From positions 9,454,398 to 9,518,397 of the forward strand of contig NC_049984.1 in assembly GCF_000003815.2 (NCBI RefSeq): a stretch of 64,000 nt of DNA, written 5' to 3'. Every line of letters starts with the position of its first letter. Position 1 is the stretch's first letter. The notes under the pieces were generated by a model, which was not told the origin of the DNA, did no database searches, and worked only from the letters and a program-made list of their open reading frames with translations. The stretch is from Branchiostoma floridae (Eukaryota; Chordata; Leptocardii; Amphioxiformes; Branchiostomatidae). The translations under genes and the position numbers were made by a program. This document shows positions 4,780-51,100 of this stretch, one piece after another.

Positions 4780-7700
4780 GTATTTATAAGTCTTTGAAAT
4801 TTGCTTACAAACCTTCTTTACTCTAATATTTAGACATGACATTGTGTGCTGATGTTTTGCTGATGTTTTGTATTTGTACGACAGATCCGTGTGTTGAAAC
4901 ACTTCTGCATCGTACAAGAACAGTTTGGCGTAGACAGCGCGGACCTGCGGGAGGAGTTGAGCTGTGTGCGTGATGAGAGCGGCGTGGCCTCGGGGGATGA
5001 GAGCAGTGATGAGGAAGCTGAGTCAGACAGAGGAGGCAGTGAGTCTGTGGAGGAAGTGGACTTGTCTGCATCAGGTACGTCAGCATCTGGCCCTAGAAAC
5101 TTTGATTTAGACATTAAGAAGAATGTTTGGCAGTCAAAGTAAAGATTTAAGTAATGTTCAAGGAAGCTTAGGTCTTCAGGATCCAGTATGGTTGTGTAAT
5201 TCAACCACACTATCTAACTTTCCATAGAACATCTGTTAGGAGAAGACATTACTGGATTGGGTGATTAAGTGACTAACTCTGTAGTTCCCAGTGTTTTGAT
5301 GTGTTCATTTTACCATGTCCTCTCCACCACAGATGACTCTGAGAATGAGGAGTATGATCGAGGCACCACAGGGAGGGCCAGGAAGGGTTGGGTGAGTACT
5401 ACTATCTAGCATGCATGTTTCTTTGAGGTTCTCATTTTCGTTATCTTTGTATAAACGTTTTATCCAACTTTATTTCTGTCATTTTTACCCAGGGTAGTCC
5501 ACTCAGTGCTTTAGATTGCTTTGCAGTGGAGCCCCGCATAAAACTTTCTGTGTTCCCAAGTCCTGGTTGCAATAATGTATGAAAAAAACACACTTTCTCC
5601 ATTCCAGATGAACCGTAAGAATGAGAAAGGGGAGTCCATGTTACACAGGGCCTGCATCGATGGGAACCTGAAGCTGGTGAAGTCGCTGGTGGAGCAGGGA
5701 CATCCTGTCAACCCTCGGGACTACTCCGGCTGGCTGCCACTGCACGAGGCCTGTAACCATGGATACCTAGGTACACAACCTGCCTGGTGATATTATTCCA
5801 TATATAGATACAGATGGCACTAGGTCATTTGGGGTCACAGTCTTCTATTGTGACTTTCTTTCACAGTATTTTTGCCCATCAGGATACCTTAGAATGCACC
5901 ATTTTAACTTAAAATTCACAAAAACTCAAGGCTTGTAAGTACCCATGGATACCTAGGTACGCAACCTGCCCACAGATATCATTCCAGCATGTTTGGGGAC
6001 AATACATTCTGCTTAACCATTAAGCTGCCAGAGGGACAGCTCAGGACATGATCTCAGTGGTACTGGGTTTGACCCATGACCTCCAACCTTAATCCTTGTA
6101 AGTTCCGTCGTAAGAATATGTTCTACTGCCAAGGAGGTTATGTCTTCTGAGATTTTACTTTTGTAGAAGGATAGCTCAAAAGTTTATAAATGCATTTTCA
6201 TTGTTTTTTATCTTGTTGGTACAGTTGCAGCCTTACAGATCCATATGTTTACTCATTTTTCTGTACAGACATAGTTGAGTATCTTGTAGACCACAGTGCA
6301 GCTATCAATGATACTTATTTCTCTGTACAGACATAGTGGAGTATCTGGTAGACCACAGTGCAGCTATGAATGACAGAGGAGGGGAACACTGCGAGGGGAT
6401 CACCCCCCTGCATGATGCAGCCATCTGTGGACATGGGGACATCGTGCAGCTGCTGGTCAGCAAAGGGGCCAATGTGCTGGCCAAGGACGATGAGGTGACC
6501 AACTCACGCTTGAAGTTAACATCCTAGAGTTATATTTTCACTCGTGTCAGTTTATTTGTCAATTTCTTGTTTTGTTTGCCTGTTAGTTTTTGGACAGGTT
6601 TTCTAGTCGTATTGCCTTTAGTCAAGCAAGAGGTGAAGAGCTTTCTGGAAAAATTCAAATATGGATCTGTGGATTTTGAAAGGACTTTTCCATGTCAAGT
6701 TGAATAAAAAGATGCTATGATGGTTTTATTGCAGGGCCGTACCCCCCTTGATGCCATGGTTAGTTGGAGACAGTCCTATGAGAAGGAGTTGGATGAAGAG
6801 GCTCTAAACCTCGCACTCAGGACTGAGAGGGTCCTGAGAACAGCCATGAAGGAAGGTTTGTGTATCCCATTGTGCACTTATGAAGAACTTGGCAGTTCAT
6901 GTGCAATGTTTCTACATGTGCAATGTTTCTACATGTGTATAGATATTCCTTGTACATTCCACAGAGTTTACTACAAAGGTGTGACGACTGGAGGATTTTC
7001 TAGTTGGTTGTATACTTCACACTGTGGGTTTTGTTTGTTTCAACATTAATGGCTTTATAATTCCATCCACAGGAAACCCCCCTGTAGCCCCTCTCCGGTC
7101 CAGAGCAGCCCTCCACGATGACCTCTTTGATGATGAAGACACAGAATCTGCCAACCCTGACCTTGCAGTACCACAACAGGTCTCTAGGAGGCAACCTCCA
7201 AGCAGGGAAGGAACCAACAGCAATAGGAGAAAGGAAACGGGTAGAACATTGCAGAGAAGTAGACCTCAGGGCCAAAAACAAAGGGTTGACAAAAGAAGCC
7301 ATGTCTTTGGCTGTGTTGAGTCAGATGACAGTGAAGCATCCAATGATGTTGACTCTTATTCAGGTAGAAGTTTAAGCCAAAGTCAGCCAGTATCTGACAT
7401 AGACACATTCCAGTCTTTCTCAGGAAACAGCACACCTACCTCAAGCCAGGTACCCAGGGAGGAAGAGTATGAGGATGATTTTGTCGAACTGAGACCGGCA
7501 AGAACTAAGCAGAGAAATAGGGTTGTTCGTACAAGAGCGGTCAATGATCATGGTTTGGAAGAAGAAAGATTTGGTTCTCGGTTAGAGCCAGAAGTACATT
7601 TAGGTCATAATCTCCAAGAGGAGACAGATACAGTATCGTTATTAGACGACCCAACAAACGTGTACCAACAGGCCATGGCTTCCGTAGGGCGTAGTGCTGT

Positions 7701-10700
7701 CAGGCGTGAACTCTCACAGATCTCGCAGCGACCGCAAGACCAGGAGGAAGCCGTGCCCAACCACACGCCGGCTCTTATCAATGAGGAGGACTACACGGGA
7801 GGGGATGATTGGTTAGTCGACGATGTCGTCCAGAGGCCGGCAAAGCGCCAGAAGCTGAGCTGTGATTTCAGTGAAGGAAACCAGACCAGAAGTGTCGGCA
7901 GTAGAAAACCGTCCACTGGGAGTGGTGGAGAAGGGGAGGTCAGTAGTGATGCAGGTGTTGCCAGTAGAACTCAGACTCGAGGGGGCTCAAGTAGCAGAAC
8001 CACTGGTAGAAACCGGCTGAGTCGCCCCAAGAGACAAACCCAGCTGACCCTGACCGGTATGGGGGTGAGACAACAGGACAGGAGACAGGATTCCAACATG
8101 GTGGATCTAACAGAAGGGTCGCAGGTGTTCCAAGGCTCTGTCTCACGAGAGGACACTGTTGTCCCAACTCCCCAGGTGCACAGTGCAGCGGCTGCACAGG
8201 TGCCCATGAGGTTGAGGGTGAAAGTTCAGGACAAGACCTTTCTCATACCCATTCCTAACAGGTACATGTTTCCACACTGTGTTACTTATGTGTAGATGCT
8301 GTAGTAGGCAGTTTCTACCTATAAAAGTGAATCCATGGTGATGTTCTGCAGTGCGGAGAACTGTTGATCGAAAATCCAAGTGAGAATATATTAATTCACT
8401 TGTATTTTAGCCATTTTTTCTATGCATAGTAGAAAGCCTTTCTACATTTCATAAAACATTTTGTATCTGCCAATTTTATTCAAGCAAGATGTCTTACTCA
8501 AGTAGATGCACAAAGAAAACAAACTTTACTGCCCCCAATTCCAATATATCGCAAGACTTGAAAGATTTTATTCTCCTGCACCCTTTAAACCTCACAGTGA
8601 CAGCAGTAAGTCCATAGGCTGGCTGGCTGAGCAGGCTTCTCAGCGCTACTACAACACGTGTGGCCTGCGCCCCAGGCTGGCGCTCCACACCAGGGAAGGG
8701 GCCATGCTGGAGGCTCATGATGCCATCTCTGACGTGCTCTCCACCAATGAAGAGGTGAGTTACATAGGAAGTAACCAATGAGCAGGCATATTACATACAT
8801 GCTGGAGGCGCATGATGCCATTTCTGACGTGCTCTCCACCAATGAGGAGGTGAGTTACATAGGAAGTAACCAATGAGCAGGCATATTACATACATGTAAA
8901 GCTCTATTTAAGGAAGTGTCTCGTGCAAAGGCTAATGTACTATGAGGCACACCAGTCAGTCAGAGATGCATAAAAGTGCTAGATACAAAGCAGGAAATTT
9001 TTTTTTAATACATGTACATGTATATGTCTCCTTCCCCAGGTTGTTGCTAGTGTCCAGTCCTGGGACTTACCCCCACTCCCAGAGAGGTACATCAAGGCCT
9101 GTGAGAACTCTAACTCAGGTGAGACACTGCACACCTGTCTTTCCCAATGCTTACATGGAGGTATTCAGAGTTATGTTGACATAGATACTACTACAACAAT
9201 CAGTTGGGAAGCTTTAGAATTGAATATTCTCATACAAAACAATGGGGAAAGTTTCATGTACAATGTATGCTGCCCCTTTGTTTTCAAGTTACATTTGTGA
9301 AATAAGAAAGAAGCAATCCCTTGGATATTTATGTTGTAAAGCCCAACACATTTGACTGGCCTGCTCTTGTGAAAGTTGAGTTGTTCAGCTCTTACACTTA
9401 GGGTGGGTATTGGTACTGGTACACCATACAGATACAAAACCTTTTTTTCTTGTTGGACCAGTCTAGAAACACTGGACCTGAAAAAATCATTATACCGGAT
9501 GTTCGACTGATTCCAAAATGAACAGATTATACCTGCAGCTGTTTAGGTCTTTTGGGGCTTACCAATTCAAAAAATTACAGATGTGAAGTAGGGGAGAGTT
9601 GAGTAATTTTTCCAAGCTTCTACAGTCGAACTTGATCTAAAACAGAGGATACTGCACCAAACAGAATCCAGAAATGGACCATTGTTTTGAATATTGCCCA
9701 TTCACAAGTTTTCACTGATAATTAGGTCCAGGTTTAGGTCCGGACCTAGACCTGATCTTCTGGGCCCGTACCATACCTGTACTTGAATTTTCTTCACTGT
9801 TACTCACCCCTACTTACACCTGTCCCCAGCTGTCCATCCCAGAGTGCGTGCCCTGTGTGAGTCCCAGCAGACTTCAGCCAGCCTGAGTGCCTCCAGTCTG
9901 GGCCTCCGTCTGCCCCATCTCTCCCCCCTGCTCAGTGCACTGCAGTGTCAGTACTGCATCAAAACTCTGGTCCTGGCTAGCAACAGGATTGGGGACAAAG
10001 GTAGGACAGATAATTAGGGACTTACCAGCTCATAGTGTTAAGGGGGCACACACCAGTTTATTTGGGGGTTCAAATGGAGGCGGCACACCCTCAAGTCTAG
10101 CGACCATCTCTTCCAGGGAATTATCCTGAAGGAAAATAACTGTATATGGGGTGAGAGGATATACCTTCAGCTTCAAGACCAACTGAGTTTCGATCCTTCA
10201 ACTTCTCTAATTTTGAAAAATTACAGGGAAAAAACATTATTTTCATGTCAAAAATGATGCACAAAATCGGGCATTTTCGCATTGGATAAAACAGATGAAG
10301 AAGATTTTTCCGGCAAGCACGACTGATACTGCCAGAAAGAGGAAAATCTAAAGACTAATCCAGCCAATTATAAAGAAAATTCTAGTACTACAGTTTTTTT
10401 AATCATCCACGGCGCGCGGCATTGCAACTTTGCTTGACACAGCGCTTCAGAGGTAAATCTAGGTCACCGGCCTCTTTACATTCAGGCGTAGGGATATCCC
10501 GGAAGCAACGCGCGGACCAAAACACAATTTGCACCAAAAACACACCATTTCCTACGCTTTTCAGCCATGTAACCGTTTAATGTCATTTCGCAGGAAATAA
10601 TGAGAAATGTCAACTCAAACATGGGCCCTCGGAAGCCTTTCGTCACTTTTTGGTCGCGGACTACCACGGACCCCGGTCGCGGAAGAACTGGGGTGTGCAC

Positions 10701-13700: not shown

Positions 13701-16278
13701 TTTAAAATCCCATCTCCATGTAATAAAGGCTAACTGTCTCTGTACCTTTGACTGTAGAAACTTGGTTTAATTGACTATCAACACTACTTGACTTCGCTCT
13801 TGTTGTCTTCCTGGCCCCCCGGTTGACCCCAAATGGCTGCCGACATAGTGTGTCCATTTTGTAATTGGCGAAACCTGTTCCTCTGTTTTTTTTTCAGGTC
13901 TGTTTTTTCGGATTGGTCCAAGAAGAAAAAAAAATGTTTTGCACCCGTATGATGTACTGGTCCCTACACCTAACTGTTGGTATACCATACTATGTGTGTT
14001 TAGTCCTATGTTCAACCTTCCTGGCCACTTTGATTTCATACTGAAGGCAACTTTTTTTTTTGGCCAAACTTTTTTTTTATTCGCTCGCTCGCATCAGTTT
14101 TGGAGTTCCCGGAGGATGTCATCCATATAATCAAATCAACATGGCCTTACACATACTAGTATCAAAAGCTAGTAACCAGGGAAATCTGTGACCGAGTTAG
14201 AAGTTAAAATAAGTCAAGTTGCAAGGACATAAATTGCTTTGATATGAAACAAAACCATTACAAATGCATTAAAGAAGCTTTTCTTATCTCAGCACCTGGA
14301 AGATCTGAACCTTGGTTTCAACTCACTGGGAGACAGCTGCACTCTGCCCCTGGCCAGACTTGTGCAGGCATGCCCCCTACTGACGGTACTGCATCTCCAG
14401 TCCTGCTGCCTGAGTATGAAGGTTTTTCAGCAGCACCGCAGACAGCTCATGGATGGGCTGAAAGGTTGGGATTGTTGGCTGGTGTGTGTGTGTGTGTGCT
14501 AAGCTCTTTTTTTTTCTTTCTTTGATTTTGCAAAGGACATTTCATCACTGATTCTTAACTTTATTTCTTCTCCCTTTTCATTTGTCCCATTTTCTGTGTG
14601 TGTGTGTGTGTATGTGTGTGTGTGCGGAAGGAAACTAAGCTCTTTTTTCTTTGATTTCGCAAAAGACATGTTATCAACGATTTCTTCTCCATTTTCATTT
14701 GTCTCATATTCTTTTTGAACCAAACTTGTTCTGTTATCCTCCAGGAGCCCTGCACCTCCAGACCCTGGACATATCCCACAATCCCCTGGGCTCCACGGGG
14801 GTGGAGCTGCTGCTGAAGTGTCTGGCGCAGGATGTGGTGACCTCACTTGACCTCCGCGGAGTCATCGCCACCTCCAGTAACAACCACCTGGCCAGACATG
14901 TCTCCTTGTACCTCGCTCAGGTAAACTTGGAGTGGTCACCTTTCATCATGCATTGATTAATTCTGAATCTTACAGGACAGTTGTTTAGCCTTTTCCCTGC
15001 TGTCTAACCCTGTGGCCGATACAAATGTGGGGCCGAACAGCTACTGTAAAATAACTAAATGCAGAAATATTTGCGGTGGTTTTATGTTCGCTGTTATCGT
15101 GAGGCCGCTTCACCGCAAACTCCAACCATTGCGAACATTTTTCTTAACAGTATGTGACTACAGTGTATGGTACTACCGCAAACTCCAAACTACTGCGACA
15201 TTCCATATAATATCCGCAAACTTGAATGCATTTACAGTACCTAAGCAAGTTGAAGGTTGAGCGGTCAGTTGCAATTACATTCCAAATAACAGAAAAGGAC
15301 TAGTCCAAATGAAAAATAAAGAGCAAACTTGTTGAAAATATTTGTGTTGATGTGTAACCCATGGTGTTGTCTTTTACAGCCTGACTGTGTGCTGAAGCAC
15401 CTGAGTGTGGCTGATAACTACCTGTGTGATGACATGCTGGGGGAGATTACCAGGTCAGGAGTCAGATAGATAGATGGATGGATGGATAACTGTGAACTAT
15501 GAAAGTGGATAAAAGTGCTATTTTGTTTCACAATGTCAGTTCAGCAAAAGAAGATTAAGCTGCAATTTCAAAATGGTTTTGGTCTTTGCTATTTGATACC
15601 TTACTGGATGGTTCGGTATTGTATGCATTCTATGTGAAATGCCAACATGTTCTTGATGTAAGAATGAAGGAACTTGGTGTGAGAATGAAAGAACAAAAGA
15701 AACATTGCATTGGAAATGTCAATGAAGGTTAGACATCCAGGTAATAAGATACGCCAAAAAGCAGTTACTCATTGAATTGGATATGACTTTGGAAACAGTT
15801 AGACGTTTCAGACACCATCAGTGTCTTTTGTCAGTGAAAGTGACACTCTTTGAAAAGTACATGCTCGACAGTAACAGTTCTGGTTCTGTGCTAACACTGT
15901 TCACTGACAGCAGATTTTCCCCACTGTTCCTACAGAGCCCTGCAGTCCAACCCCACCCTACAGTCCCTACAAGTGTCCACCAACTGTAAGCTGGGGAACC
16001 AGACGCTCCAGACCATCCTTGAGACCGTCCAGTCAGGGGTACCTTTACAGGAGCTGGACATGTCAGGCTGCGGACTGACCGCTCCCCTCAGCAACACAAC
16101 CCTGGATCTGTTAGAACAAGCCACTGTAGGGCTCAGGAAGTTAAGGCTGTGTGGGAATAATCTGAAGAAAGGGGACAAGGACCAGGTTGTTGATCTGTGG
16201 CGTATGAAGTGGGGAGGGAAAGCTGTTGAGTATGTGGAGAGAAGCAGCTGCATGCTTGGTGTGGCAGAGGAGGGGTAG
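1133..16278 (+). CDS. TONSL: Tonsoku-like DNA repair protein TONSL (21 coding exons; first codons unresolved)
   Basis: TONSL partners MMS22L at stalled replication forks, binds new histone H3-H4 through its ankyrin domain and loads RAD51. The spliced product seen here is about 1495 residues plus a few missing N-terminal ones, against roughly 1378 in human. The domain order is the diagnostic family order: TPR repeats, acidic segment, three ankyrin repeats, disordered linker, ubiquitin-like domain, leucine-rich repeats. Exons: 1133-1228, 2002-2353, 2724-2840, 3194-3480, 3825-3970, 4334-4468, 4654-4779, 4885-5074, 5333-5391, 5608-5770, 6331-6494, 6735-6855, 7073-8261, 8598-8754, 9040-9118, 9830-10000, 12850-13022, 14293-14464, 14745-14920, 15380-15453, 15936-16278. 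Every junction has GT and AG and a consistent phase. The least certain acceptor is at 4334. The stop is TAG at 16276-16278. Three exon-edge duplications lie in its introns. Confidence 0.93.
1370..1624 (-). mobile_element. 5S rRNA-derived SINE
   Basis: Read on the minus strand, about 121 bp from 1624 to 1504 follow 5S rRNA end to end. It starts GCTACGGCCGCG, has GATCTCGGAAGTTAAGCA (internal A-box region), then CTTGGATGGGAGACC (C box), and ends GCTGTAGCCTC. Many positions differ from a true 5S gene, and the sequence continues past the 5S end into a non-5S body (about 1503-1370) with no T-run terminator. A SINE with a 5S-type Pol III promoter fits better than a 5S gene. It lies in TONSL intron 1. 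Confidence 0.72.
2953..3170. mobile_element. Palindromic MITE, TACTGTAAATG family (degenerate copy 1)
   Basis: It begins TACCGTAAATG and contains the family hallmark words GGTTTTAAGTTCGCGGTAG and GGTTTTAAGTTCACGGTGAAGTGG, then fades out at about 3167. The best preserved family member is at 32016-32234. It sits in TONSL intron 3 and ends only about 25 bp before the exon at 3194, so it probably supplies part of the intron 3' end. There is no coding capacity. Confidence 0.72.
4885..6855 (+). CDS. TONSL: TONSL exons 8-12: acidic segment and histone-reading ankyrin domain
   Basis: The exons at 4885-5074 and 5333-5391 encode a strongly acidic run ([20 protein letters not shown]). The next three exons encode ankyrin repeats: [47 protein letters not shown] and GRTPLDAM. 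Human TONSL reads histone H4 unmethylated at lysine 20 with this domain. The Asp-Tyr...Gly-Trp, His-Glu-Ala-Cys-Asn and Leu-His-Asp positions that I recall forming the pocket are all kept, so histone reading is probably conserved. Exon-edge repeats follow 5770 and precede 6331. Confidence 0.92.
5753..5989 (+). repeat. Direct duplication of a TONSL exon 3' edge and splice donor (186-bp offset)
   Basis: The end of the ankyrin exon plus its donor (CCATGGATACCTAG then GTAC, followed by CAACCTGCC and ATTCCA) recurs at 5942-5987 with a few mismatches. About 45-50 bp are shared and the offset is 186 bp. The second copy therefore carries a decoy splice donor downstream of the real one at 5771. Confidence 0.8.
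6262..6374 (+). repeat. Tandem duplication of a TONSL exon 5' edge and acceptor (62-bp period)
   Basis: CTGTACAG plus the first codons of the ankyrin exon (ACATAGT/GGAGTATCT...) occur at 6261 and again at 6323, with several differences. The downstream copy is the true exon start (6331). Splicing to the upstream AG (exon from 6269) would read about 17 residues, [15 protein letters not shown] and a short tail, and then hit TAG, so it would truncate the protein. Confidence 0.85.
7073..8261 (+). CDS. TONSL: TONSL exon 13: long disordered linker
   Basis: This single 1189-bp exon encodes about 396 residues rich in Ser, Arg, Gln, Asp and Glu with no folded domain that I can see. It includes acidic patches ([29 protein letters not shown]) and a short conserved-looking element, [18 protein letters not shown], which matches the human ALIPEEE..GDWLELD position. 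A Gln/Thr segment with a PIP-box-like flavour ([12 protein letters not shown]) lies near the C-terminal end. The last residues, [18 protein letters not shown], start the ubiquitin-like domain. Confidence 0.92.
8598..9118 (+). CDS. TONSL: TONSL exons 14-15: ubiquitin-like domain
   Basis: The exon at 8598-8754 encodes [19 protein letters not shown] and STNEE, and 9040-9118 encodes [19 protein letters not shown]. Both align to the human ubiquitin-like domain that follows the disordered linker. The exon at 8598-8754 has its 3' half and splice donor duplicated 95 bp downstream (8798-8892). The copy has no acceptor of its own, and reading through the first donor meets a TGA within nine codons, so only the first donor gives a functional protein. 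Confidence 0.92.
8703..8892 (+). repeat. Tandem duplication of a TONSL exon 3' edge and donor (95-bp period, 2 copies)
   Basis: The last 52 bases of the exon (CATGCTGGAGG...AATGAAGAG), the GTGAGT donor and about 38 bases of intron are repeated once with few changes. The second donor is at 8850. The second copy has Glu codon GAG in place of GAA, and other changes, so it is not brand new. Confidence 0.88.
9401..9812. mobile_element. Terminal-inverted-repeat DNA element (GGGTGGGTA family, copy 2)
   Basis: The left end GGGTGGGTATTGGTACTGG and right end TTACTCACCCCTA are inverted repeats of one another with mismatches. The interior shares several phrases with 405-781 and 13525-13715, such as GGTCCGGACCTAGACCTGAT. 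The length is about 412 bp, non-coding, inside the TONSL intron that precedes exon 9830-10000. Confidence 0.6.
9830..16278 (+). CDS. TONSL: TONSL exons 16-21: C-terminal leucine-rich repeats
   Basis: Six exons encode ribonuclease-inhibitor-type leucine-rich repeats: [78 protein letters not shown] and [15 protein letters not shown]. In human TONSL this region helps recruitment to chromatin. The protein ends CMLGVAEEG, with TAG at 16276-16278. The intron between 10000 and 12850 carries two identical TTAA-flanked 661-bp repeats. The intron after 13022 carries a Harbinger-like element. Confidence 0.92.
10038..10706. mobile_element. TTAA-flanked 661-bp repeat, copy 1
   Basis: The core runs from 10042 (GGGGGCACACACCAG) to 10702 (CTGGGGTGTGCACCG) and is bounded by TTAA on both sides. 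The ends form an imperfect 15-bp inverted repeat. I read no difference between this copy and the one at 11840-12500. TTAA duplications are typical of the piggyBac superfamily, but the GGGGG end is not the usual piggyBac CCC end and no transposase is present. Confidence 0.85.
10707..11835. other. 1.1-kb spacer between the identical TTAA repeats
   Basis: This stretch sits between the two identical repeats in a TONSL intron. I find no coding similarity in it; the short open frames are not conserved-looking. It includes a G-rich run at about 11653-11682. A phrase AGAGTTATGGCCAT also occurs in the TTAA element at 62.2-63.4 kb, suggesting that the spacer is transposon interior and not host intron. 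Confidence 0.4.
11836..12504. mobile_element. TTAA-flanked 661-bp repeat, copy 2
   Basis: This is the same orientation as copy 1 at a fixed offset of 1798 bp, with TTAA at 11836-11839 and 12501-12504. Either two insertions of one MITE hit the same intron, or the whole 10038-12504 block is one composite or LTR-like insertion with direct terminal repeats. Perfect identity points to a recent event or an assembly duplication. Confidence 0.85.
13278..14146. mobile_element. Harbinger-like non-autonomous element, copy 1
   Basis: The ends GGCCACGTTGATTTGATTAT and its complement ending ATCAACATGGCC are inverted repeats of about 27 bp. They are flanked by TTA on both sides (13275-13277 and 14147-14149). 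A 3-bp TWA target duplication is the hallmark of the PIF/Harbinger superfamily. The 869-bp interior has no transposase and contains a nested GGGTGGGTA-family fragment at about 13525-13715. Confidence 0.75.
13525..13715. mobile_element. Fragment of the GGGTGGGTA-family element (copy 3) nested in the Harbinger-like element
   Basis: The segment from TGGGGGAGGTACCAG through the GGTCCGGACATGAACCTGGACCTGAT block resembles the copies at 405-781 and 9401-9812, including the CTCAAAACAATGG/GTCCATTT-type phrase. Its ends are degraded. It lies wholly inside 13278-14146, which gives a relative insertion order: the Harbinger-like element was there first, or it captured this piece. Confidence 0.45.
14484..14720. 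repeat. TG microsatellite with local tandem duplication
   Basis: TG runs at 14481-14498 and 14596-14623 each lie beside a copy of a roughly 80-base T/C-rich block. The block includes AAGCTCTTTTTT, TTTGATTT(T/C)GCAAA and TTTCATTTGTC. The two copies lie about 130 bp apart in the intron between TONSL exons 18 and 19. They supply the polypyrimidine-rich intron 3' end before the exon at 14745. Confidence 0.75.
15042..15239. mobile_element. Palindromic MITE, TACTGTAAATG family (copy 2)
   Basis: It starts TACTGTAAA and ends ATGCATTTACAGTA, with the internal words GCGGTGGTTTTATGTTCGC and GAGGCCGCTTCACCGCAAAC that match the family. It is 198 bp, diverged, and lies in the TONSL intron after 14920. Confidence 0.82.
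15727..15860. mobile_element. Fold-back element relic (GAAGGTTAGACATCCAGG family)
   Basis: GAAGGTTAGACATCCAGG, AAGATACGCCAAAAAGCAGT and GTTAGACGTTTCAGA are shared with the fuller copy at 46827-47025. A shorter trace lies at about 1660-1790 (GGTTAGACGTCCAGGTAATG). It is non-coding, in the last TONSL intron. Confidence 0.6.
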
Positions 16279-16337
16279 GGAAGTGGAGTCTGTACTATAC
16301 TTGAAGACATCCAGGCCAGTCTTTGCATTAAAAGGAC

Positions 16338-16343
16338 AATAAA
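16338..16343 (+). terminator. Polyadenylation signal AATAAA of TONSL
   Basis: A canonical AATAAA lies 60 bp after the TONSL stop codon on the same strand, which would give a very short 3' UTR. It is the first such signal downstream of the stop. Confidence 0.6.
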
Positions 16344-18532
16344 GCAAATCACTGTTATTTCTTATAACCCCATCTTACAAAGTGTCTAATATGTTACAAA
16401 TTTGTCAAATGTGAATGGACAGTGTTTGCGATGCCAACTTCTTGCAAGCTCTCAATATCATGTTGATATTGAATGACAATGTGATATTACTATCACCAGA
16501 TGTTAAGTTCTGAAGTGTTCAGCTTGTAACACCAAAGAGGTTCATCATTGTATATTTTGAAAAAGTATGTGTATGTATATATATTAAGGTAAAGTATATA
16601 ATGCAGAAATGAGATGAATTTTGCAAGAACTTGCAACAGTTCTTTGGTAATCTCAAAAGTGTAGACTTTTTTCTTAGAATTGATTCTCATGAACTAAAGT
16701 GAAGGATATTTCTTTTACAACCATCCTCAGGCAGTGACACTGATTAAACAGGATCCATTTAACATGTTTGGAACTTCGGTGGAATAAGAGTTATAAATCT
16801 CATGGTTAGACATTTCATCCTATAAGTAACAGCTAAGCAAAAGATTCCTTTAATTTGTACATGACAAATGCATTAACAGTGGTATTCTTGGTTGATTTAA
16901 CGGAATCTAACATGAACATATGTTCTTATTGGATATTACACAAATAAATTTGTGTTTTGCCCACCTGTGCACCGTGTACTTTGTTGTCACATGAACTGCT
17001 AAGATAACGGCTTCCGTATTACTAAGGATCCTGTATGTCATTCTACAACTTAATTTTTTAAGAGGGGTTGCCCTGATTGTACCAACATTTCTGCCTCCAG
17101 TACAGATAAGAAAGAATCTGTGTGGTTATAAACATCATGCACTTGAAAAAAAAATACAATTAGAAATAAGTATTTGTTCTTGTTCAGTAGAAACAGCAAG
17201 TAGGTGGCATGGTTGGAGTGAACATTTGATGTCCATTATTGAGTAGTCTCTGGTCGTTCCTCTCTGCTGCAGCTTCTAACTTTGCCGCTTGATCCGACCA
17301 GTACTTCTCACGGTCCTGGCGAATAGCTATATTACGGATTCCGTTGAGCCGTCGATACTCCGTCAGGTCTCCACGTAAGCGTGCAGCACGGCGAGAGTCA
17401 ATGATGTCGAGGGCGCAAGAGGACGAGTGATTGATTGATTGGTAAGTAACGTTACAAGTCAAGTTTTTATAGTTTCAAACAAGTTCAGTGAATATCCAAA
17501 TAGCAATACATGACGATAATACTGTCTTTAGAGTCCAAATGGAGTGAAGAAGTAGCTTTCGCATGGTGATACTGTGGTAGGTAATGTGTGGCCAATTTTT
17601 CGTCTTCCACCTATACGTAACATGCAACATGCTGAAATATATGTAATGGTCTCAGCTCCGCTATCTGAGAAAGGAGCTGCTGCTCAAATACTTTTATTCA
17701 TCGGAATATCTGTTTTCAATACGCTCCCTTCCTCAATCTCAATGTCTCACATCCAGATTGACAGAAAAACAGTTTGCTTTAGGATTAACGTTACAATCGT
17801 GTCCAGTCACGCTCAATACGTTCATACAAGTCAAGTCAAAGTTTATTGCACAACATTTGTATAACGGGTACAATGTAAGGCAAACTTAGGTTACGTTATA
17901 CTACATTATATTGTACATGTATAAGACAACTAGCAGTATACAAGTAGTATAATTAAGCTAATAACTTAACAATAGATGACGGCTATGCACTATTCGAAGA
18001 AACACAATGTGCAATGTGAATCAAATCCAGAATGAAAGTTCATGCAACCAGTGCGCCTGTCCTTGGTGCTGAACGGTATATCCGACCACAATCCTGCTAT
18101 GTTGTGCCTCAATGAATATTGTGATAGGCATTATATTGAACAAACGAACTGGATTTCAGAAAAATAAGTCAACATACAGGCGTTTCCTTGGTTGGAAAAG
18201 TTATTTCGCCATCATGCGACGGTGCATACTGCACACAGTTCAGGAGCTCCGCCTAACGGCTAAAAATATAACTGCAGGAAAACCCCCACATCGAACAGCG
18301 GTAAATATAACATGAACCGCTAGGGGTCCTCATTGATACGCGCAGATGATTTTGGATACACTGCCCTGCGTACGAGGTCACTTCCGCCAAAACACCGGGT
18401 TGGCACCAGCTGGTCACACAGAAGCCACGGCTTACACAACAAAGCTGTCAACGGTTACATAACCGAGCTCTGTCTGAGAAGGGTACTATTTACAGTGACT
18501 GTCTGCATTTCCTCCTACAAGAAGGTGCAACC
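16344..18532. other. Intergenic region between TONSL and the CRTAC1-like gene
   Basis: The region is AT-rich and non-coding apart from a LINE fragment on the minus strand (about 17190-17445). At 17820-17890 there is an AAGTCAAAGTTTATTGCACAAC-type phrase that looks like a dispersed-repeat end. The promoter of the CRTAC1-like gene must lie in the right part, but I see no clear core element. Confidence 0.5.
17190..17445 (-). mobile_element. Fragment of a non-LTR retrotransposon ORF2 (linker between endonuclease and reverse transcriptase)
   Basis: The minus strand encodes a peptide with DSRRAARLRGDLTEYRRL, NGIRNIAIRQDREKYW and KLEAAAERNDQRLL. This basic, Arg/Glu-rich pattern is what I know from the linker between the endonuclease and reverse transcriptase domains of animal LINE ORF2 proteins. 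Only about 70 residues remain and neither catalytic domain is present, so it is a dead fragment. Confidence 0.55.
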
Positions 18533-20161: not shown

Positions 20162-20241
20162 CACCTTCAGGCAAGAGAAAGGGAAGATTTATTTATGGCT
20201 GTTTGTTATGTAAATATTCAGTTTCAAAGGTAATAGCATAA

Positions 20242-20615: not shown

Positions 20616-20618
20616 TAA

Positions 20619-22650: not shown

Positions 22651-23040
22651 TTCTCTAAGAGAGTTTGGAGGAGCTGGGTGGAGAGAACTTCTCTAAGAGA
22701 GTTTGGAGTAGCTGGGTGGAAATTAAAGAACTTCTTTCCTAAGACAGTTTGGAGTAGCTGGGTGGAGAGAACTTCTCTAAGACAGTTTGGAGTAGCTGGG
22801 TGGAGAGAACTTCTCTAAGAGAGTTTGGAGTAGCTGGGTGCAGAGAACTTCTCTAAGAGAGTTTGTAGTAGCTGGGTGGAGAGAAGTTCTCTAAGAGAGT
22901 TTGTAGTAGCTGGGTGGAGAGAACTTCTCTAAGACAGTTTGGAGTAGCTGGGTGAAGAGAACTTCTCTAAGACAGTTTGGAGTAGCTGGGTGGAGAGAAC
23001 TTCTCTAAGAGAGTTTGGAGTAGCTGGGTGGAGAGAACTT
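22651..23040 (-). repeat. 38-bp minisatellite copied from the last codons of ATP9 (about 10 units)
   Basis: On the minus strand the gene ends with codons for [11 protein letters not shown] and a TAG (23040-23005). The same 38-base unit then repeats about nine more times downstream, to 22651. Units from 22794 on are exactly 38 bp apart (AGCTGGGTG marks at 22794, 22832, 22870, 22908, 22946, 22984 and 23022 on the plus strand); the two most distal spacings are slightly irregular. The functional copy is the first in the coding direction. The array lies in the 3' UTR. Confidence 0.93.
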
Positions 23041-38000: not shown

Positions 38001-41000
38001 GAATAATATATGTATAGACTTAGATGTCTACTATTAGTAAGTGCATTTGTAGACAATCTCTCCAAACTCCTTTACAGTATGTACGTTAAAGAGGCATCAC
38101 AAATGCATTTCAAGAGGCAGCACTAAGTTCTTCTGAAGGATTCTAGTATGTTGAGAGCACTTTTTTTTAGACAGCACCTTTAACACACAGACTTTATTAC
38201 ATAACACTGTAACGTTAGTTCACCTTTATCCGCGGGGTAGCCTATATCCATTGTTTTTCAAAACAGGGTATTTAGGCACATGAAGTTGACGGGTGGTAGT
38301 CTTAAACTGCAATGTACAGAAAATATTGCAATTTTAAACCAACGTCCCTCAACGTGATATCCCCAAATACCCGGTTTTTAAAAGCAACGGATATAGGTTA
38401 CCCAACGGATAAAGGTGAACTAACGTTACTACAACCTGTGTGAATATGAAGACTGTCAAAACTAGAAATCCTGCTATAGGCGCTGATCGAAGAATGCAGC
38501 ACACAACACCATTTGTACAAAGCAGACTGGAGAATATCATTATCATCATGATCGTAAACAAACGTAGCAAGTATAGGTAAAAAGGCTTTCAAAAAAAAAT
38601 TGTTAGAATTCATGCTTATTATTAATAAGCTAAAGGTTAGAAACAATTTTGTAGAAGAATGTTGTTTGCATGCATGTCAGATTAAAAACAAAATTCAGCA
38701 CTGTAAACATTATGTACAAGTCAACCCAGTACATCTTTTCACGACATTGGGTTTGACAAGCAACTTTGTGACAAAGTCGCCAGTAAATTATGTAATATAA
38801 GTACATAATTTCAATGTGGGATGGATGGATGTATTATTACTGAGTAAATACAATTAAAGAAAAAATTGATACCTGAATGAATTGTTGCCGCTCATTTTCT
38901 GCTTATTTTCACCAGTAGCAAAGTTGACTACATTGACCTAAATGTGCTCTAAACCTCTAGACAAAGTTTGGACATAATTGTACTTATACGACTTGAGTTC
39001 CACGTACCTTTCCCACAATCCCAATGCCTGCATCCGCAGCTTGGATCATGCTGACATCATTCCCACCATCCCCTATAGAGGAGAAAACACAGCTGTGAAC
39101 CCGCTGGGTGGTAGTTAACACCACATGTAGGGCAACAGTACATAAAGTACAATATGCTGCAAGACAAAATTCACTCATAGCAACAGAAGCAAGATGATGG
39201 GTGATTGCAGCCTCCTCATGTCTTTCCTACTTAAGGGCCATGGAAGGGCCTAATAGTATTGTGTTATTGTGTTATTAGGTGAGCTGACTACTCTCTCTTC
39301 ATAGCCAGGGGCTGAATTGTGAGCAGCTTACAACACACGTAGATGAGGCTAAATAGCATGGGCCTGGAGCGTTTGCCAATAACTCGGGTGACCTAAATAT
39401 GACAGCAATTGCCCTACATTTTGTATGTGCAGCCAAAGGACTTTAGGTTTTGAACCACTCACACCGGGAAGGACCCCTACTCTTGTCAGTAAGAATGCTG
39501 GGATCTTTAACGTGCTTAAAGTGTAGCTCTCCTCAAACACGGGATCTCAATTTAATGTCCTATCTGAGGGACGGCCCTAACCCGAAGCTAGGTACATTTT
39601 GTACTCATTTTCACCTGAGTGAAGTGAGGAAAGTTGTGTTCCCAACATCAGAACAAATCAGCACTTTTGAACCTGTTACCTCTGGGGTCTGGGTCAAACA
39701 CCTAACCGATTGCGCCACACGATGCCACACGAATGTGGACTATAACATACGATGAATGTGGACTATAACATACTGTAAGATGAGGGTTGGTGACAAATGC
39801 TTGTAAATGATGAAATCGCAATGACAGCCCCCCATCTCCTGCCCACAGGCCATGGCAGTTAGATGTCATGATGAATGTGGACCACCGTAGACTATTATTA
39901 CACCCACTTGAGTATATCCCTCCGTACCTATAGCTGCACATCTCCTGCGAGTGTGCTGCTTGATGAGTCGCACCACCTCCGCTTTCTGTGTGGGAGAACA
40001 TCTGCAGATGATGACAGCTGGGCACTGGCAGGCCAGCTCCATGAACTCATGTTCATAGTACTTCAGACACACCTGCAGTCATCACAAACAACACACAAAG
40101 GCTTAAACTCATGTTCATAGTACTTCAGACACACCTGCAATCCACACAAACAGCACACAAAGGCTTAAACTCATGTTCATAGTACTTCAGACACACCTGC
40201 AGTCATCACAAACACCACACAAAGGCTTATGATTACAACACATGAAAGAAAGAAATATTGAAAGAGCACAGCTTGAATGAATTGTAACAAATTTATCTTA
40301 ATGTTTAAAGAAGGGTTTACATTTACTTACTTACACTACACTTAAACTAATTAAATTTAATTTTTGAATTTAATTTTTGTGTTGGATGACAGTTCAGAAT
40401 TTCAATATGGATTATACCAACACAGATGAGCTTTCATGCAAATCTTTATTTCTTATATCACAGGAGAGAGACATAAATATATAATTTGGTCCAAACTTCA
40501 GGTAATGTTGTACATGATCACCACAAGCTGCTTACTAGTCATAAACCTTACACAAAAACTTAAAAAGTACACTCAACAGACATCCATTTATTACCCTGTT
40601 CAGAGCCTATATCCCCCAGGGACCATATATCCTGGGTGGGGTCTCATGATCACAACAGTTGACAACAATAGATAGTGTCATGACCCTGGTAACAACACAC
40701 TGTCAGAATAAAAGCAAGCCCCACCTACTGACTGGGAATATTTTTAGCTACAACATACAGTGAATGTGTGTTAGGCAGGTAGCTGCCCTGATACTCATTA
40801 AAAGACTATTTTGCATAACCTTAAAGGAATGTCAAGACATACACATGTACTATAAATACTAATGCAATACCCACTATGGCACTTGAGAGTTAAGGGATGG
40901 AGCTAAAGAACTTGTGCTGATTTCTTGCCTTATCTATCCTGTGATCTACGAGGTAACTTGAGGTTAAATTCGGTGCCGTGAGGCAAATCGTGTTTTCCCT

Positions 41001-42180
41001 TGGGAGAGCTGCAGTTGTTTTTCAAGGCTCGCAAGTAGCCTAAAGGCTGTACCATTCATCAAAGATTATTATGTTTCTATACTGTTACAATGGGAAAATT
41101 CAGGTTCTTTACCTCCATGGAGTCACCTCTGATGACCAGGGCGGAGTCATTCTTTCTCCTGAAGGCGTTCAGCTCCAAGTGAGCCTCAGCTCGATTACTA
41201 ACCTGGAAACAAAGAAGGGAACACAACATTTCTCATCAAGGAAGCACAAGTAGTAAAAGGAAAGGAAAGTGATCTTGATCTAGTTTTAGATCACTGAAGA
41301 GCTAGTTTTCCACTGGTCATGACAGAGAAGACAGACGCTTTATACAGTATTTACAGGTTCATTGTACTGAGAAATTCCCCTTGCTCTTTTCGACAACCAC
41401 AATGAACAGTGGACCAGGGCTTAACGTCCCATCCTAGGGACTGCAACCATTTCTGGTAGTGTGCATGTCAAATAAGCGACACAGCCGGAATAAAACTCCA
41501 GGCTTCTAGTTCCAGAGGCAGGGCCGCTAACCACTGGACTACACACGCTACCTTAAGTTTACAGTTAGTAGTAGAGGAGACTGAAATGGTTGAAGAATCT
41601 GACTGTAAGAGATAAAGACACTTAAAAAATTCAAACAAAAGACATTAACATGACCTTAGACCGACCTGTTTGAAGACATGTATGGTCTGTGTTCTGGAAA
41701 CAAGTCGGGAACTCTTGGCGATACACTCAGCTGTCTCCAGTTTGTCTCCTGTTAACATCCACACCTACAAGACAGAGGAGTCTCAGCAAAGCTCACATCT
41801 TCATATCATAACTAAATGATTAGAGTGTACAATGTACATGAGCTACAACTACACAAGTTCTTCTGTCCCTGTAACTTTGAAATTTAGCTCTCACATGTAT
41901 ATAAGCGACATTATGATGCATATAAAACTTCAGTGCCCTAGACAGATGGTCCAAACAACATTCATCTCTCCTCTGATTGTGCCAATGGCATTCTCAAAGT
42001 AGACATACTTTCAAAAACTCCGACACTTATCAGTGTGTCAGTACCAAGTATACCTCACTGTACAGTAATTCTCATACTTCCCCACATAAGTATTCCAACA
42101 AAAAGCCTTAACATTGTGGCTAGGTTAATTACCTTGATGCCTGCATTTCTCAGCAGCTCCAGCGTTGGTCTAACATCAGC
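23005..42180 (-). CDS. ATP9B: ATP9 exons 20-30: hinge and M5-M10
   Basis: Exons: 42133-42180, 41666-41764 ([19 protein letters not shown]), 41113-41202, 39928-40072 ([20 protein letters not shown]), 39008-39072 ([20 protein letters not shown]), 26776-26931 ([19 protein letters not shown]), 25602-25666 (M6: [17 protein letters not shown]), 24623-24731 ([14 protein letters not shown]), 24228-24285 ([15 protein letters not shown]), 23572-23775 ([19 protein letters not shown]) and 23005-23138 ([19 protein letters not shown], ending [10 protein letters not shown]). The SPPSYSKL tail is the conserved ATP9 C-terminus. A 12-kb intron between the fifth and sixth of these exons hosts the EGF-ligand genes. 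Confidence 0.96.
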
Positions 42181-45100
42181 CTGTAGTGGAAGTAACAACA
42201 CCACCTAGTTTACAAGCTGAAAACTGCAGCTAAGTGAGGACATGGGGGTGTTTACACACCATGTAAGTTATGTTCCATTTTGGTGATCTTTCTGAAGAAA
42301 TAAGCCCTAACTTCATTCACTAGTTCAAGATTCTTAAAATGAAGCTTAAGATGAGCATACTTAGCAATACAAAAGTTGTCAATCATTTTGCTGATCTTTT
42401 TTTCATTTCTGAAGATCAGCGGACGGGTTGTCCTCTAATTGTAGTCATTCTAATGTCATTGTAAAAGTCATAAACTCACAATTGAGGAATCCTGTGCACA
42501 TGTCCATGCCCTTCCTTATCTTTAACTCAGGAGCTTGCTAACAGAACAGACATGTAAAACCTGTCCCTTCAGTGCCCCTGGACTCACCTGTAGTTTGTCC
42601 TCCACCCCAGTCAGGCACAAGAGTTCCATGTCTCGCTCCAGACTCTCCACCACTGCACTCACCTTCAGCGCTCGGTCCTGGACACTCAGCTTCGCACTGC
42701 TGTAACGGCTCTGTAATACATAATGTTTCAACAATCAGCTTTGCACTGCTGTAACGGCTTTGCAATACACAAGGTTTCAACAATCAGCTTTGCACTGCTG
42801 TAACGGCTTTGCAATACACAAGGTTTCAACAATCAGCTTTGCACTGTTGTACCGGATCTGCAATACACAAGGTTTGAAAAATCAGAGCACTGTTGTAATG
42901 GCTCTGCAAGACACAAGGTTTCAACAATCAGCTTTGAGCTGTTGTAACAGCTCTGCAATACACAAGGTTTCAACTATGAGCTTTGAGCTGTTGTAATGGC
43001 TCTGCAATACACAAGGTTTCAACAATCAACTTTGCACTGATGTGTATGCTTTGTACTGTTGTAACAGCTCTGAAATAAAAAGTCATCATGCAGGAATACA
43101 ACACCCAGTCTTCTCATAAAGTGCCTACCACTAGTAAAATCAGAAATGATGTGTTCAGAATTCAATACTTTATATTCTGAATCATGACTCATAGTTTTAA
43201 CATCCTACCTCAAAGTCCTGGTACTGCTCTTCTGTTAGAGTCTTCTTGGCCACCACCAGGGTCCTCAGCCCTTCCCTTGCCATGTTGCCACACTAAGGAT
43301 AACAAGACACGGTTCAATGTCAGTATTCCCTTCTGTTTGTAAGATTTAGTCTATCCAACCCTCTATAGCTAGATCTAGATCTCCAGACTACAACCCTATA
43401 GTATACAAACTTGGTTACAGAGATGGGCTGCAGCAAGGATAGAGAAAACTATCCAGTGGTCATTATAACTAAGAGTTGACAGTCACAATGGCAAGTTTTA
43501 AATTCTAACTGTACCTCCTCATCCAGCCAATCGTTGTACTGCACAATAGATGACATCACGACATCGGCACCCTTCATGTAGAAAGTGATCTCTCCTGTCA
43601 CCTCCTCCTGAGGAAACAAGTCAACAATAATAATGTCCAGTTAACACATCTTTATGTTATGAAATCTTAAGATGTAACTCTAGTTACCTCTGTTACCTGT
43701 TAGTAAGAGTACATCTCCTGCCACTGTTTAGTACACATGTGCAAAGTGAGTCCTTAGGGATGTGGTACACTTGAGCACTTGGTTAGTCTGGAAGTTTGAT
43801 TTAAATTTAACTATTTGCACATTTTTAAAAAACCACAATAAAACATAAAGCAAATCAACGGAAGCAAGAACATGTGAATTGTACATGCTCTTCCCCTGTC
43901 AAAATGTAAAAATCATAATACAATTCAACACCTCATAATGTAATAAAGATTGAATGGATATGTAGTGACTCAATCTGAAAACAAGCTGTTTCTGTTCAGT
44001 ACGTGTGTGTATGTAAGTTTATTTCCCTGTGTGAGGTGGGATACAGACCAGTGAACAATGCCTGGACTACCCCAGACTGGAGTCTATGACTTTTGAGTTG
44101 GCACATTACTTGGTTGTATTGTATCTTGTCTTGCTAATACAATTATTGCTTAGAACTTTCATAATATAATAAATATAATAAACTTTGCTTAATCCCCCTT
44201 TACACTGCAAATCTCTGGCAGCCTTCCTAGATCACACTTTAACAGTTAGTAGACTTTTGTGGCAATACAGATAATATATGCATGCCACCAGACAGAATTT
44301 AAGTGTAGCATGACAATAAAAAACATGTTCTATATTGTATATGACAGTCACTGAAAAGAATTACACAACATTTGAATTAAATATAAACATTGTGGAGATG
44401 AAGATGATGTGGAGAAATAGCAACTTGTGATATGGTTAACTAATGCTGGAGAAATGTGCCCAGAGAAAAAGTGCTGACCCTAACGATGATGCCCATCCTC
44501 TTGCTCTCGGAGGTGAAGGGGAACACCTGCAGGATGTCGTACGTCTGGATGGCTCCGCTGGGGGTCATGAGCTGCATGGACGTCAGGTCTCTCCTGATCA
44601 GCTTCAGACCGATCTCCTCTGTCCATGTCACCAGGGCAACCTGTCATCACAAAGGGAATATTCAGGTTTAGTTGGACCTGTGATAACTGATACCATTGCT
44701 GTCTTGGATTTTTTAAATAGACAGAATGTACAGAAGCCTGAACCCAAACAACCATTTCATTGAAAAAAAAAGTCAGAAGGGCAAAGATGGACCTGTGACA
44801 CTATTGTTCTGCAAATAAAAAGAAAGCAGAAGACATAAAAGCCCAAAACAAAACTCACTGAGAAAAGGTATATGGCTACAAGCAGTGATGGACCTAGAAA
44901 ATATTTGTAATAACAACACATAAGAGGATTATTTTCTGGTATCCTAAAAGTGCAAGAGGCATGGAAACTTGTCATAAACAAAGGATCAAACAAACTTTGA
45001 TCTGGAGTGAAATAAGGCAGTGCACACAAACACTGTGGGTACATGTAGCAGATTAACAGTGCCATCTGTTCAAGCCACTATGACTGTACAAACTAAGAAT

Positions 45101-48100: not shown

Positions 48101-51100
48101 AAAGAATGCATTATGGTACATGTAAAAAAACCATCATACTAGTTCTATCTTCTACCTTACAGTATGCTTCATATTCAAGTGTTGATTCCGAGTAATCTAA
48201 CCTTGGAGGGTGGATGAGAGGTGTTCATGACACTCCTAGTCTCTGCTCCGGTGTAGATAACCACTCCCAGGGCCGTCCCTGAGGCTACCACAGTGTTGGA
48301 CCACAGGGTGTTCTCCACACTCAGCGAGTCTTCAGCTTTATTTTCATCATTCTGGACACAGAAATTCATACATGTCGTCAGAGAGCAGTTACCAGAGGTT
48401 TCGCTCCACTCCCACTCAGCAAACAGATTCCACAGTAGGAAAGTTGAGCAAAGAGAAATCTCAAATAGTCCTTTTATTGAAAAGAGCATACGACTGGTCA
48501 TGAGTTTTCTCAAATACTTTAACACATAGCTTTGACAGAAGTAATATCTACAGAATGTTTATTGACACTACTCTCTGCATTTAGAAATATGTCTGGACTT
48601 ACCCTTGAGAAATTGCCAATGAAGCTGTGAATGTTCCTCTGTGGCTTTTCTGCATACACATTGGCCTCTATATGTAACAGGTCCTGTACAAGGATAAATA
48701 GGTTTATATTTGACAAATGTATATTGGCTTAGTTGGCAGTAAACGATTGATATTACTTCAATAGATGGTTTTCTCATTACGGATGATAACATCAGAATCT
48801 TGATTTTTATTTTGCACGCTAATAGAGGCTAACGTGTAGAAAAATTGGCCTTACTGAGTCTATAGCTAGTGCCTGTGTGCTGGGAATGGCCAGCCTTAGC
48901 TTCCAGTCTGTCTCCCCATCCAACTGGTCAGTGCGAATAAAACAGGCACCTGGAAAGCACACAGTGGACAGTACAGTCAAGTTACGCTGAGATCCATTAA
49001 AGGTGAATATAGAGTTCAAGTGATGCAGGTTAAATGGAGCTCAGTTTTTCATTTACACACATTCTCTGTAGATTGTGAATTCGTTATCCTTCCAAGCAAA
49101 ATCAGAAGCTTTTACAAATCATTCCTGTACAAGCAAAATTATAGGTAATAATACTTTGCACAGGAATGTACTGTGAGCACTGAAAATCATTGAGGATTAC
49201 ATTACAGAAACTTAACAAGTATCAAAAGTCATCCATTTTTCCCTACCATTTTTCTCTGTAGTCTTAAGAAAGACCATATCAGCTGGAACTCTCTGGTTCT
49301 TCTCTACATAGATCAAGTCGGACACCTGGATATCTGCACTGCTCACACGGACAACACCTGTAGCAATAACAGCCAAGTCAGCACCAAGGACAGGGACCAG
49401 AGGGCTATTCCATGTGTACATGTGCCAAACTCTTTCTCTTAAGTACTAGTACAAGCACAGAATACAGTATGTACCATTTCTCAAGTCCTTGGTATGTCAC
49501 AGCCAGGTTTTGAACCAAATAGAAAGCAATTTATCAACTGGGCTATCCCACCAGTTTGTCAGCACCAAGGACAGACCCCAGTCATTAGAACAAGACTCTT
49601 CTGGTTATTCTCTACTGCTGTCTCTTTTCCAGATAACTTAAAATAGATTTAGCCTCCTCACTTTAAAACATTAAACAGTGGGTATAATGTCATGCTCATT
49701 GCATATTCAATCTCTCTCTGCTGTAATAACTTCAGTTCAGTTCTGTTCGTCCTCATAATACGAGGTGCCACTAATAATATCGCTCCAGGCATCTCTATCT
49801 AGCATGGTGTAATAAGAACATTACAAAATGTCATGAATATGACAACTGTGACTGCATTACTGTTATAAGGGAGTTATAACTATTCCTGACCTCTGTTGGT
49901 GAGTTTCTTGTACTGCTGTGAGTTCACCTCCCTGTCTCTTCTCCACCTGTTTATCTCATCTACAGCTTCTCGGCACATGGTCACTGACAGCACAAAACCC
50001 TGCAAACAAACCACTAGAACTGAACACATGGTCACTGACAGCACAAAGCCCTGGAAACAGAACACTAGAACTGAACACATGGTCACAGACAGCACAAAAC
50101 CCTGCAAACAAACCACTAGAGCTGAACACATGGTCACAGACAGCACAAAACCCTGCAAGCAAACCACTAGAGCTGAACACATGGTCACAGACAGCACAAA
50201 ACCCTGGAAACAAAACACTAGAACTGAAAACATGGTCACAGATAGCACAAAACCCTGCAAGCAAACCACTAGAACTGAGCACAGCAGTGAAATACTTCAT
50301 GTGCACTAAGACAAATGGCATCCAGCCAGGTGAATGCTCAGCTCTAACAGCAGAAAATTGCCATGTAAATTTTTCAGTATAGATAAGGCAAAAATCAATA
50401 CATGTACAGAAAAACAGTTCCTAAATCTAAGTAACAACTCACATATGTAGTGGTTTTCTATGAGCAAAGTAGAACCCTAAATAGGACCTGTCAAGCTTTT
50501 TTCACCTTCCCACTCACTCATATATACATTTTACTGTACACATCAGAAGCATTAGGGTTGGAACAAGAAAAATCATCTTTGAAAACTCTTGGCAAGGATA
50601 TCATGTTTAACAATTTTTGCAGATTTTATTTCTTGTTTTCTATTTCTACCGTTGACATTCTTGAACAAGCTTTCACCTCCCTTCTGGTAAAAAATGTTTT
50701 CAGACTTTCACCTATCTCCTTATCCTTGCCTCAATCTCAAGCAATCTTTTATTTTCTACTTCATTAATATCTTGATGAATAATGTACAAACCAGAGGTGC
50801 CCAGTAGGTGTACAGGTAGCCGATCTTCAGGTCGGGAATGAACTGGGAGAGAGCTACAACCAGGAAGTACAGGTTCAGGAAGAACTTAAACTGGTCATAG
50901 AGTACCTGCAAACAGAAGAAAGACAAAAAGAACTTCTTCATGTATGTAAGATGTTTGCCAAACATGTATGTATCAGCCAAACTACAAGACTCAATTGTAA
51001 GTACTTTTGAGGAAATAAGAGGAAAACCATGACTTCCAAAGATTGTTATTTCTTGGAAAGGTTTTTTTTATAGAAATCTTACCCCTGGCACAAATGTGAT

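Follow-up and report, generated by a model that had tools for sequence, protein, structure and literature searches.

Why should short tandem duplications in an amphioxus genome lie across the edges of exons? The question is raised by a 64,000-nucleotide stretch of Branchiostoma floridae (contig NC_049984.1, positions 9,454,398 to 9,518,397 of the forward strand; hereafter the window), in which two unrelated neighboring genes, TONSL and ATP9, carry arrays of short repeats whose units span a splice site or, in one case, the ATP9 stop codon. Judged from the sequence, the arrays at splice sites are mirages of the amphioxus type, in which the repeated unit spans an existing exon–intron edge, the exon-side copy codes and the remaining copies are intronic decoys. 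TONSL and ATP9 are thus two further genes with an already known amphioxus oddity. The explanation favored here, with a probability of roughly two in three, is that ordinary tandem duplication across edges is tolerated because splicing uses the exon-side copy. All results described below come from one genome assembly.

The arrays were identified using self-blastn with offsets below 1500 bp, which returned 11 arrays in the window. Seven of these had been named in a preliminary description of this DNA, and Tandem Repeats Finder (TRF) lists six of the seven amid many smaller rows, missing the split pair at 5771. Six arrays cross splice sites (TONSL 5771, 6331, and 8755; ATP9 40072, 42710, and 49999), while the seventh crosses the ATP9 stop codon rather than a splice site; direct reading of the sequence places these sites within the repeated units. 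The assertion that every unit straddles a functional boundary holds for the seven listed arrays and fails for the other four of the 11 (14482–14717, 26249–26722, 28004–28121, and 62552–62828). Exon edges were predicted with a purpose-written gene finder, whose training set held exons of kinesin, myosin, and CCT genes and a single open reading frame of the window that belongs to neither TONSL nor ATP9. Predicted edges fall at all six named splice sites, and the same result is obtained after retraining on other loci only.

Comparison with human proteins indicates which copy codes. The exons on the plus strand correspond to human Tonsoku-like protein (5ja4 for 5608–6855, 9wvh for 8598–9118). Residues 2–146 of TONSL correspond to residues 12–156 of 5ja4 as a single stretch of equal length covering 5771 and 6331, as given by a match table row rather than a residue alignment, and the alignment to 9wvh is gap-free through the 8755 junction. 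The TONSL features are as follows.

5753–5800, plus strand: working copy of a TONSL donor mirage at the end of exon 5608–5770 (48 bp, 85% identity to 5939–5986; gene finder; 5ja4 match).
5801–5938, plus strand: 138-bp stretch between the 48-bp copies (186 = 48 + 138), the core of which, 5813–5927, is a dispersed element by its genome matches.
5939–5986, plus strand: decoy donor copy (donor score 6.17 versus 2.36 for the working copy).
6250–6311, plus strand: decoy copy of a TONSL acceptor mirage, period 62 (TRF, self-blastn, direct reading; acceptor score 9.8 versus 9.3 for the working copy).
6312–6373, plus strand: working copy of the same mirage, exon 6331–6494 (gene finder; 5ja4 match).
8703–8797, plus strand: working copy of a TONSL donor mirage, exon end 8754, period 95 (TRF; gap-free in 9wvh).
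8798–8896, plus strand: decoy donor copy with an identical donor site (scores 11.71 and 11.71).

The 186-bp offset first reported at 5771 was rejected as a repeat period, as it comprises the 48-bp unit and the 138 bp between the copies. Because the core between the copies matches many places in the genome (39 further places at 84–90% identity among the 40 scored of 710 candidates), it is an element lying inside an older 48-bp duplication. When this element is aligned with seven genome copies the flanks diverge on both sides, and the 710 first-look candidates make hundreds of genomic places candidates for further copies. At the third TONSL array, the copies beginning at 8703 and 8798 differ at 3 of 52 exonic positions and at none of 47 intronic positions.

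For ATP9, exons were predicted on the minus strand from 51.2 to 23.0 kb, and the protein they encode finds its human match in 'Probable phospholipid-transporting ATPase IIA' (9vdk, 1430 bits), which we take to be ATP9A. The alignment is ungapped across 42710 and 40072. The query retained one predicted decoy exon at 49999; this decoy, like the working copy, is aligned to residues 77–85 of human ATP9A, a segment that is single there. The ATP9 features are as follows.

49974–50024, minus strand: working copy of an ATP9 acceptor mirage, exon start 49999, period 51 (TRF, direct reading, gene finder; segment single in human ATP9A).
50025–50283, minus strand: five decoys of the 49999 acceptor, in frame and stop-free within an open frame at 49880–50296 (AG kept in 5/5; scores 8.6–11.9 versus 9.62 for the working copy).
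42682–42730, minus strand: working copy of an ATP9 acceptor mirage, exon start 42710, period 49 (TRF, direct reading, gene finder; gap-free in 9vdk).
42731–43090, minus strand: seven decoys of the 42710 acceptor, the outermost diverged (AG kept in 5/7 and lost in 2/7; five score 3.7–6.2 versus 3.06 for the working copy).
40044–40105, minus strand: working copy of an ATP9 acceptor mirage, exon start 40072, period 62 (TRF, direct reading, gene finder; gap-free in 9vdk).
40106–40229, minus strand: two decoys of the 40072 acceptor (AG kept in 2/2; scores 6.11 and 6.44 versus 7.54 for the working copy).
22651–23042, minus strand: array at the ATP9 stop codon, 38 bp in 10 copies; the final codons and the stop lie in copy one (coding end 23005) and the remainder is 3′ untranslated region (TRF, direct reading, gene finder).

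The count of eight copies at 42710 is a fair one, since an eighth, more diverged copy accompanies the seven clear units. The C-terminus of ATP9 matches human ATP9A as far as residue 1013 in a chain of 1015; the codons in which the 38-bp array starts are therefore the genuine last ones, and beyond them the array extends through 3′ untranslated region. This array looks like the product of the same process; since it spans a stop codon and not an exon–intron edge, it falls outside the definition of a mirage.

The six splice arrays have the properties of mirages in other respects as well. Self-blastn, the gene finder, and the human proteins agree that all six units span an existing edge, with each array adjoining one such edge, and comparison with human TONSL and ATP9A indicates that the exon-side copy encodes the conserved protein while the rest is intronic. 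The TONSL and ATP9 mRNAs would accordingly be spliced normally, judging by the conservation of the proteins. The decoys mostly, though not always, keep their splice dinucleotide (AG or GT intact in 15 of 17), and the identification of the arrays as amphioxus mirages, first suggested in the preliminary description, is supported. Scored with site models built from 167 donors and 163 acceptors of other genes, 10 of the 17 decoys at least equal the working site, five lie within 1.5 bits below it, and two have lost the site. At 49999, two of five decoys score above the working site and three below it by up to 1.05; at 40072, both score below it, by up to 1.43. Because decoys often score at least as well as the working site, local site strength is not decisive, and exon context would presumably have to determine which copy is used. 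The decoys also misled the gene finder, which called false exons at 8799–8849, at 50114–50203, and in a kinesin locus (L035) described below.

Are edges hit more often than chance allows? In the null used here, one seed unit of each array is placed at random, not wholly within an exon, and is counted if it covers a predicted edge with a margin of 8 bp or more. This null was chosen, and nulls that place the whole array span were rejected, because a many-copy array can hold the working edge only in its end copy. With an exon score cut-off of 12, 6 of the 11 window arrays straddle a splice edge versus 0.91 expected (P = 7.6 × 10^-5), in a test that is post hoc, having been made after the pattern was noticed. 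At cut-offs of 5 and 20, P is 3 × 10^-4 and 1 × 10^-5, and among the arrays called by TRF 5 of 10 straddle versus 0.66 expected. Per base, 7 of 118 edges (5.9%, one being a decoy edge) lie in repeats versus 3.1% of other noncoding positions. The remark that exons occupy little of the locus makes chance look smaller than it is, given the density of edges (118 predicted in 64 kb).

Enrichment was also tested on 242 kb of the same genome outside the window. Best matches of kinesin, myosin-head, and CCT profiles gave 73 loci, merged into 58 stretches (242,283 bp, 178 profile hits, 171 of which are recovered by the gene finder); this is a nonrandom sample of three gene families, with many loci from two myosin clusters and mostly 3-kb pieces. 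The loci contain 29 arrays. With predicted exons, 11, 8, and 7 of the 29 straddle an edge at cut-offs of 5, 12, and 20, where 4.37, 3.55, and 3.19 are expected (P = 0.0017, 0.018, and 0.031), an excess of about twofold. Because arrays can themselves create predicted exons, the test was repeated with profile-anchored exons, and nothing significant was found: 4, 4, 3, and 2 of the 29 straddle at margins of 3, 5, 8, and 12, versus 2.23, 2.07, 1.82, and 1.48 expected (P = 0.18, 0.15, 0.27, and 0.44). Similarly, TRF arrays in the loci straddle in 2/17, 2/14, and 2/10 cases at three score cut-offs, one of the two being doubtful, with 1.74, 1.65, and 1.46 expected. Per-base coverage, a measure that weights long arrays, is 1.6% of edges (11/669) versus 2.6% of other noncoding positions (ratio 0.62, bootstrap interval 0.16–1.53). 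Arrays in the loci that do not straddle an edge are no closer to exons than random positions are (median 161 bp versus 125 bp).

Individual mirages nevertheless recur in these loci. Edge arrays were found in CCT genes (L074, donor; L076, acceptor, with only 6 bp of exon), kinesin genes (L035, acceptor; L018/L029, two donors; L031, acceptor of a predicted exon without a profile hit of its own), and a myosin gene (L056/L043, donor). The kinesin array in L035 consists of three 151-bp copies, which appear also as three matches to one profile range. At 1174–1588 of this locus, the start of a kinesin motor exon, including the nucleotide-binding loop, is present in the three copies, and the extra copies, with intact acceptors, are called as exons. 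Decoy edges, L081 (a whole predicted exon within the unit), and L074:3274 (a predicted exon within a minisatellite) were removed by hand from the lists of 13 edge arrays, six from the window and seven from the loci; without L081 and L074:3274, the 8/29 above becomes 6/29 (Poisson P = 0.15).

The window is rich in edge arrays relative to the loci. The frequency per edge is 6/118 in the window versus 6, 7, or 11 of 669 in the loci (Fisher P = 0.004, 0.007, and 0.03, by how many of the 11 are kept), and the frequency per array is 6/11 versus 3, 4, 6, or 8 of 29 (P = 0.007, 0.014, 0.056, and 0.15). The suggestion that the phenomenon is general therefore stands in part: mirages recur in kinesin, CCT, and myosin genes, while a general excess of edge arrays is so far unsupported by profile-anchored exons, TRF, or per-base coverage. 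On present data, such an excess lies between none and about fourfold and is not established.

How, then, do the arrays arise? In the favored explanation, ordinary duplication or unequal exchange would place a second copy of a short segment, one that happens to span an exon edge or stop codon, next to the first, and the array would sometimes grow to 3–10 copies. Within an exon such a duplication would break the protein; across an edge it would be harmless while the exon-side copy stays in use, and for this reason spare copies could accumulate as decoys, either within the intron or within the 3′ untranslated region. Both the duplication mechanism and its tolerance by splicing are inferred here, and tolerance has been reported by others for Adh3 and globin. 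Four properties of the arrays point to ordinary duplication with tolerance. The exonic fraction of the unit is evenly spread over the 13 arrays (mean 0.50, Kolmogorov–Smirnov P = 0.73); donors and acceptors are alike (6 and 7); 4 of the 13 periods are multiples of three, matching chance; and a stop codon is affected as well. Matches extend past whole periods by only 0–4 bp in self-blastn (0 at 6250, 4 at 8703, 0 at 40044, and 4 at 49974), and therefore no long flanking repeats drove the duplications. Furthermore, exon interiors in the loci lie in repeats at 0.8% of positions versus 2.6% for noncoding positions, which is what purifying selection predicts. A mechanism tied to splicing or R-loops, entertained earlier, is not needed, because the array at the stop codon lacks a splice site, edges have no preferred position within units, and donors are about as common as acceptors. 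Two results weigh against ordinary duplication with tolerance: the predicted-exon test leans positive outside the window (8/29 versus 3.55, P = 0.018), and the window excess is far beyond what the persistence effect considered next would give. The strong excess in the window would be due to a local hot spot, or else to chance with modest help from persistence.

The alternative that survives best, though it is itself doubtful, is that edge arrays form no more often than others and stay recognizable longer through selection on one copy, perhaps with exchange among copies. In a simulation, an array with one constrained copy remains detectable about 1.3 times longer (1.31–1.32-fold), an effect that could explain a mild excess and is too small for the sixfold excess in the window. 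Copy differences also bear on this alternative. Over seven arrays, 21 of 33 differences between working copies and decoys fall at third codon positions (P = 3 × 10^-4 against one third), somewhat above the expectation for neutral decoys; the count leaves out two copies at 42710, a gapped one (D4) and the diverged outermost one, and includes the kinesin array L035. The bias is partly expected, because the working copy can change only at third positions. The share is 6/7 where an array has two copies (P = 0.06 against one half) and 9/17 among decoys (P = 0.08 against one third), and the bias may reflect exchange between copies, constraint on decoys, or chance. Longer persistence is not clearly borne out by the units themselves, since divergence in their exonic parts is not clearly below that in their intronic parts (mixed results in the six splice arrays).

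It is unlikely that exon edges are mutational hot spots, at which splicing, transcription, R-loops, or a change in base composition leads to breaks or template switches and tandem duplications consequently begin more often than they do in introns. The window counts with both self-blastn and TRF arrays, and the counts in the loci with predicted exons, would fit a hot spot, as would the higher G+C content of edge arrays (0.434 versus 0.382 in other arrays), although edge arrays include exon sequence. The loci are, however, not significant with profile-anchored exons or TRF, per-base edge coverage there runs the opposite way, and arrays off the edges lie no closer to exons than random positions do. 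The uniform position of the edge in the unit, the parity of donors and acceptors, and the involvement of a stop codon also argue against a hot spot. Slightly less likely still is the specific proposition that exon edges in amphioxus genuinely give rise to tandem duplications at several times the rate of introns, at least in regions like the window.

It is improbable that selection keeps the spare copies for a function, whether as alternative starts or ends of exons or as a buffer or insurance for splicing. The intact dinucleotides and high scores of most decoys, the in-frame, stop-free 51-bp units in ATP9, and the third-position bias in two-copy arrays and among decoys are compatible with function. 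Young copies would retain their sites without selection, however, and the periods show no preference for multiples of three, AG is lost in two of the seven decoys at 42710, and no additional segment is present in the human protein at the ATP9 sites. Amphioxus is highly polymorphic, which would favor an assembly artefact in which haplotypes or repeats were wrongly joined. Such an artefact is very improbable here: although passages of PMC3087553 report one published globin array as misassembled in an early draft, the copies in the window differ among themselves, one pair is split by an inserted element, and lancelet PGBD5 arrays are described as confirmed by re-sequencing data in passages of PMC3902484.

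Beyond the seven arrays at functional boundaries, two of the other arrays served for comparison.

14482–14717, no strand assigned: array in a TONSL intron, non-straddling, nearest exon edge 17 bp away (self-blastn, edge-distance test).
28004–28121, no strand assigned: array of 41 bp in 2.9 copies, away from predicted exons (self-blastn).

The TONSL intron at 14465–14744 consists mostly of two diverged direct repeats (offsets 117–128) and a TG tract; the repeats stop 17–28 bp short of the exons on both sides and are possibly an old, decayed array. A run of N at 26569–26671, either a gap or a masked stretch, lies within the direct-repeat cluster 26249–26722. The window also contains a long reading frame in a single exon (18350–20161), which carries FG-GAP and UnbV_ASPIC domains, and a reading frame with a galactose-3-O-sulfotransferase profile match (61575–62144).

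Mirages are natural tests of how splicing chooses one site among near-identical neighbors and are a proposed source of new introns; in practice, their decoys mislead gene finders. If edges were hot spots, intron biology would be tied to genome instability, and there would be a steady supply of spare splice sites and half-exons for the evolution of introns and alternative exons.

Mirages have been described in several amphioxus genes. Passages of PMC3087553 report them in two globin genes (BflGb6 and BflGb9), consider them possibly general in cephalochordates, propose intron gain from them, and cite those of Adh3 (Canestro 2002) along with two papers whose titles name retinol dehydrogenase and a presenilin gene. 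Passages of PMC3902484 add PGBD5, for which the published lancelet model has a doubtful exon of the decoy kind, and cite troponin C. Among titles and abstract beginnings in the open-access literature, partly the top matches of longer lists, no genome-wide test of mirages was recognized. Like the mirages of Adh3, BflGb6, BflGb9, troponin C, and PGBD5, as presented in parts of PMC3087553 and PMC3902484, the window arrays are minisatellite-like copies across an exon–intron edge, at donors and acceptors, with decoy AG or GT mostly present and units of tens to about 160 bp. In the published cases the working copy is still used, according to the same passages; in the window arrays its use is predicted from the conserved proteins. 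Unlike the published mirages, they lie in new genes (TONSL and ATP9, with kinesin, CCT, and myosin genes elsewhere), and the window also contains a stop-codon array. The arrays further resemble intron gain by tandem genomic duplication, in that the duplicated segment carries splice signals and mirages could, as others have proposed, supply the raw material of new introns (passages of PMC3443670 and PMC3087553). A new intron between two exonic copies was not found at the window arrays; comparison with the human proteins gives neither loss nor gain at the edges. In intron gain of that kind, as outlined in parts of PMC3443670, an exonic AGGT segment is duplicated to yield a new intron, whereas in TONSL and ATP9 the duplicated unit spans an edge that already exists.

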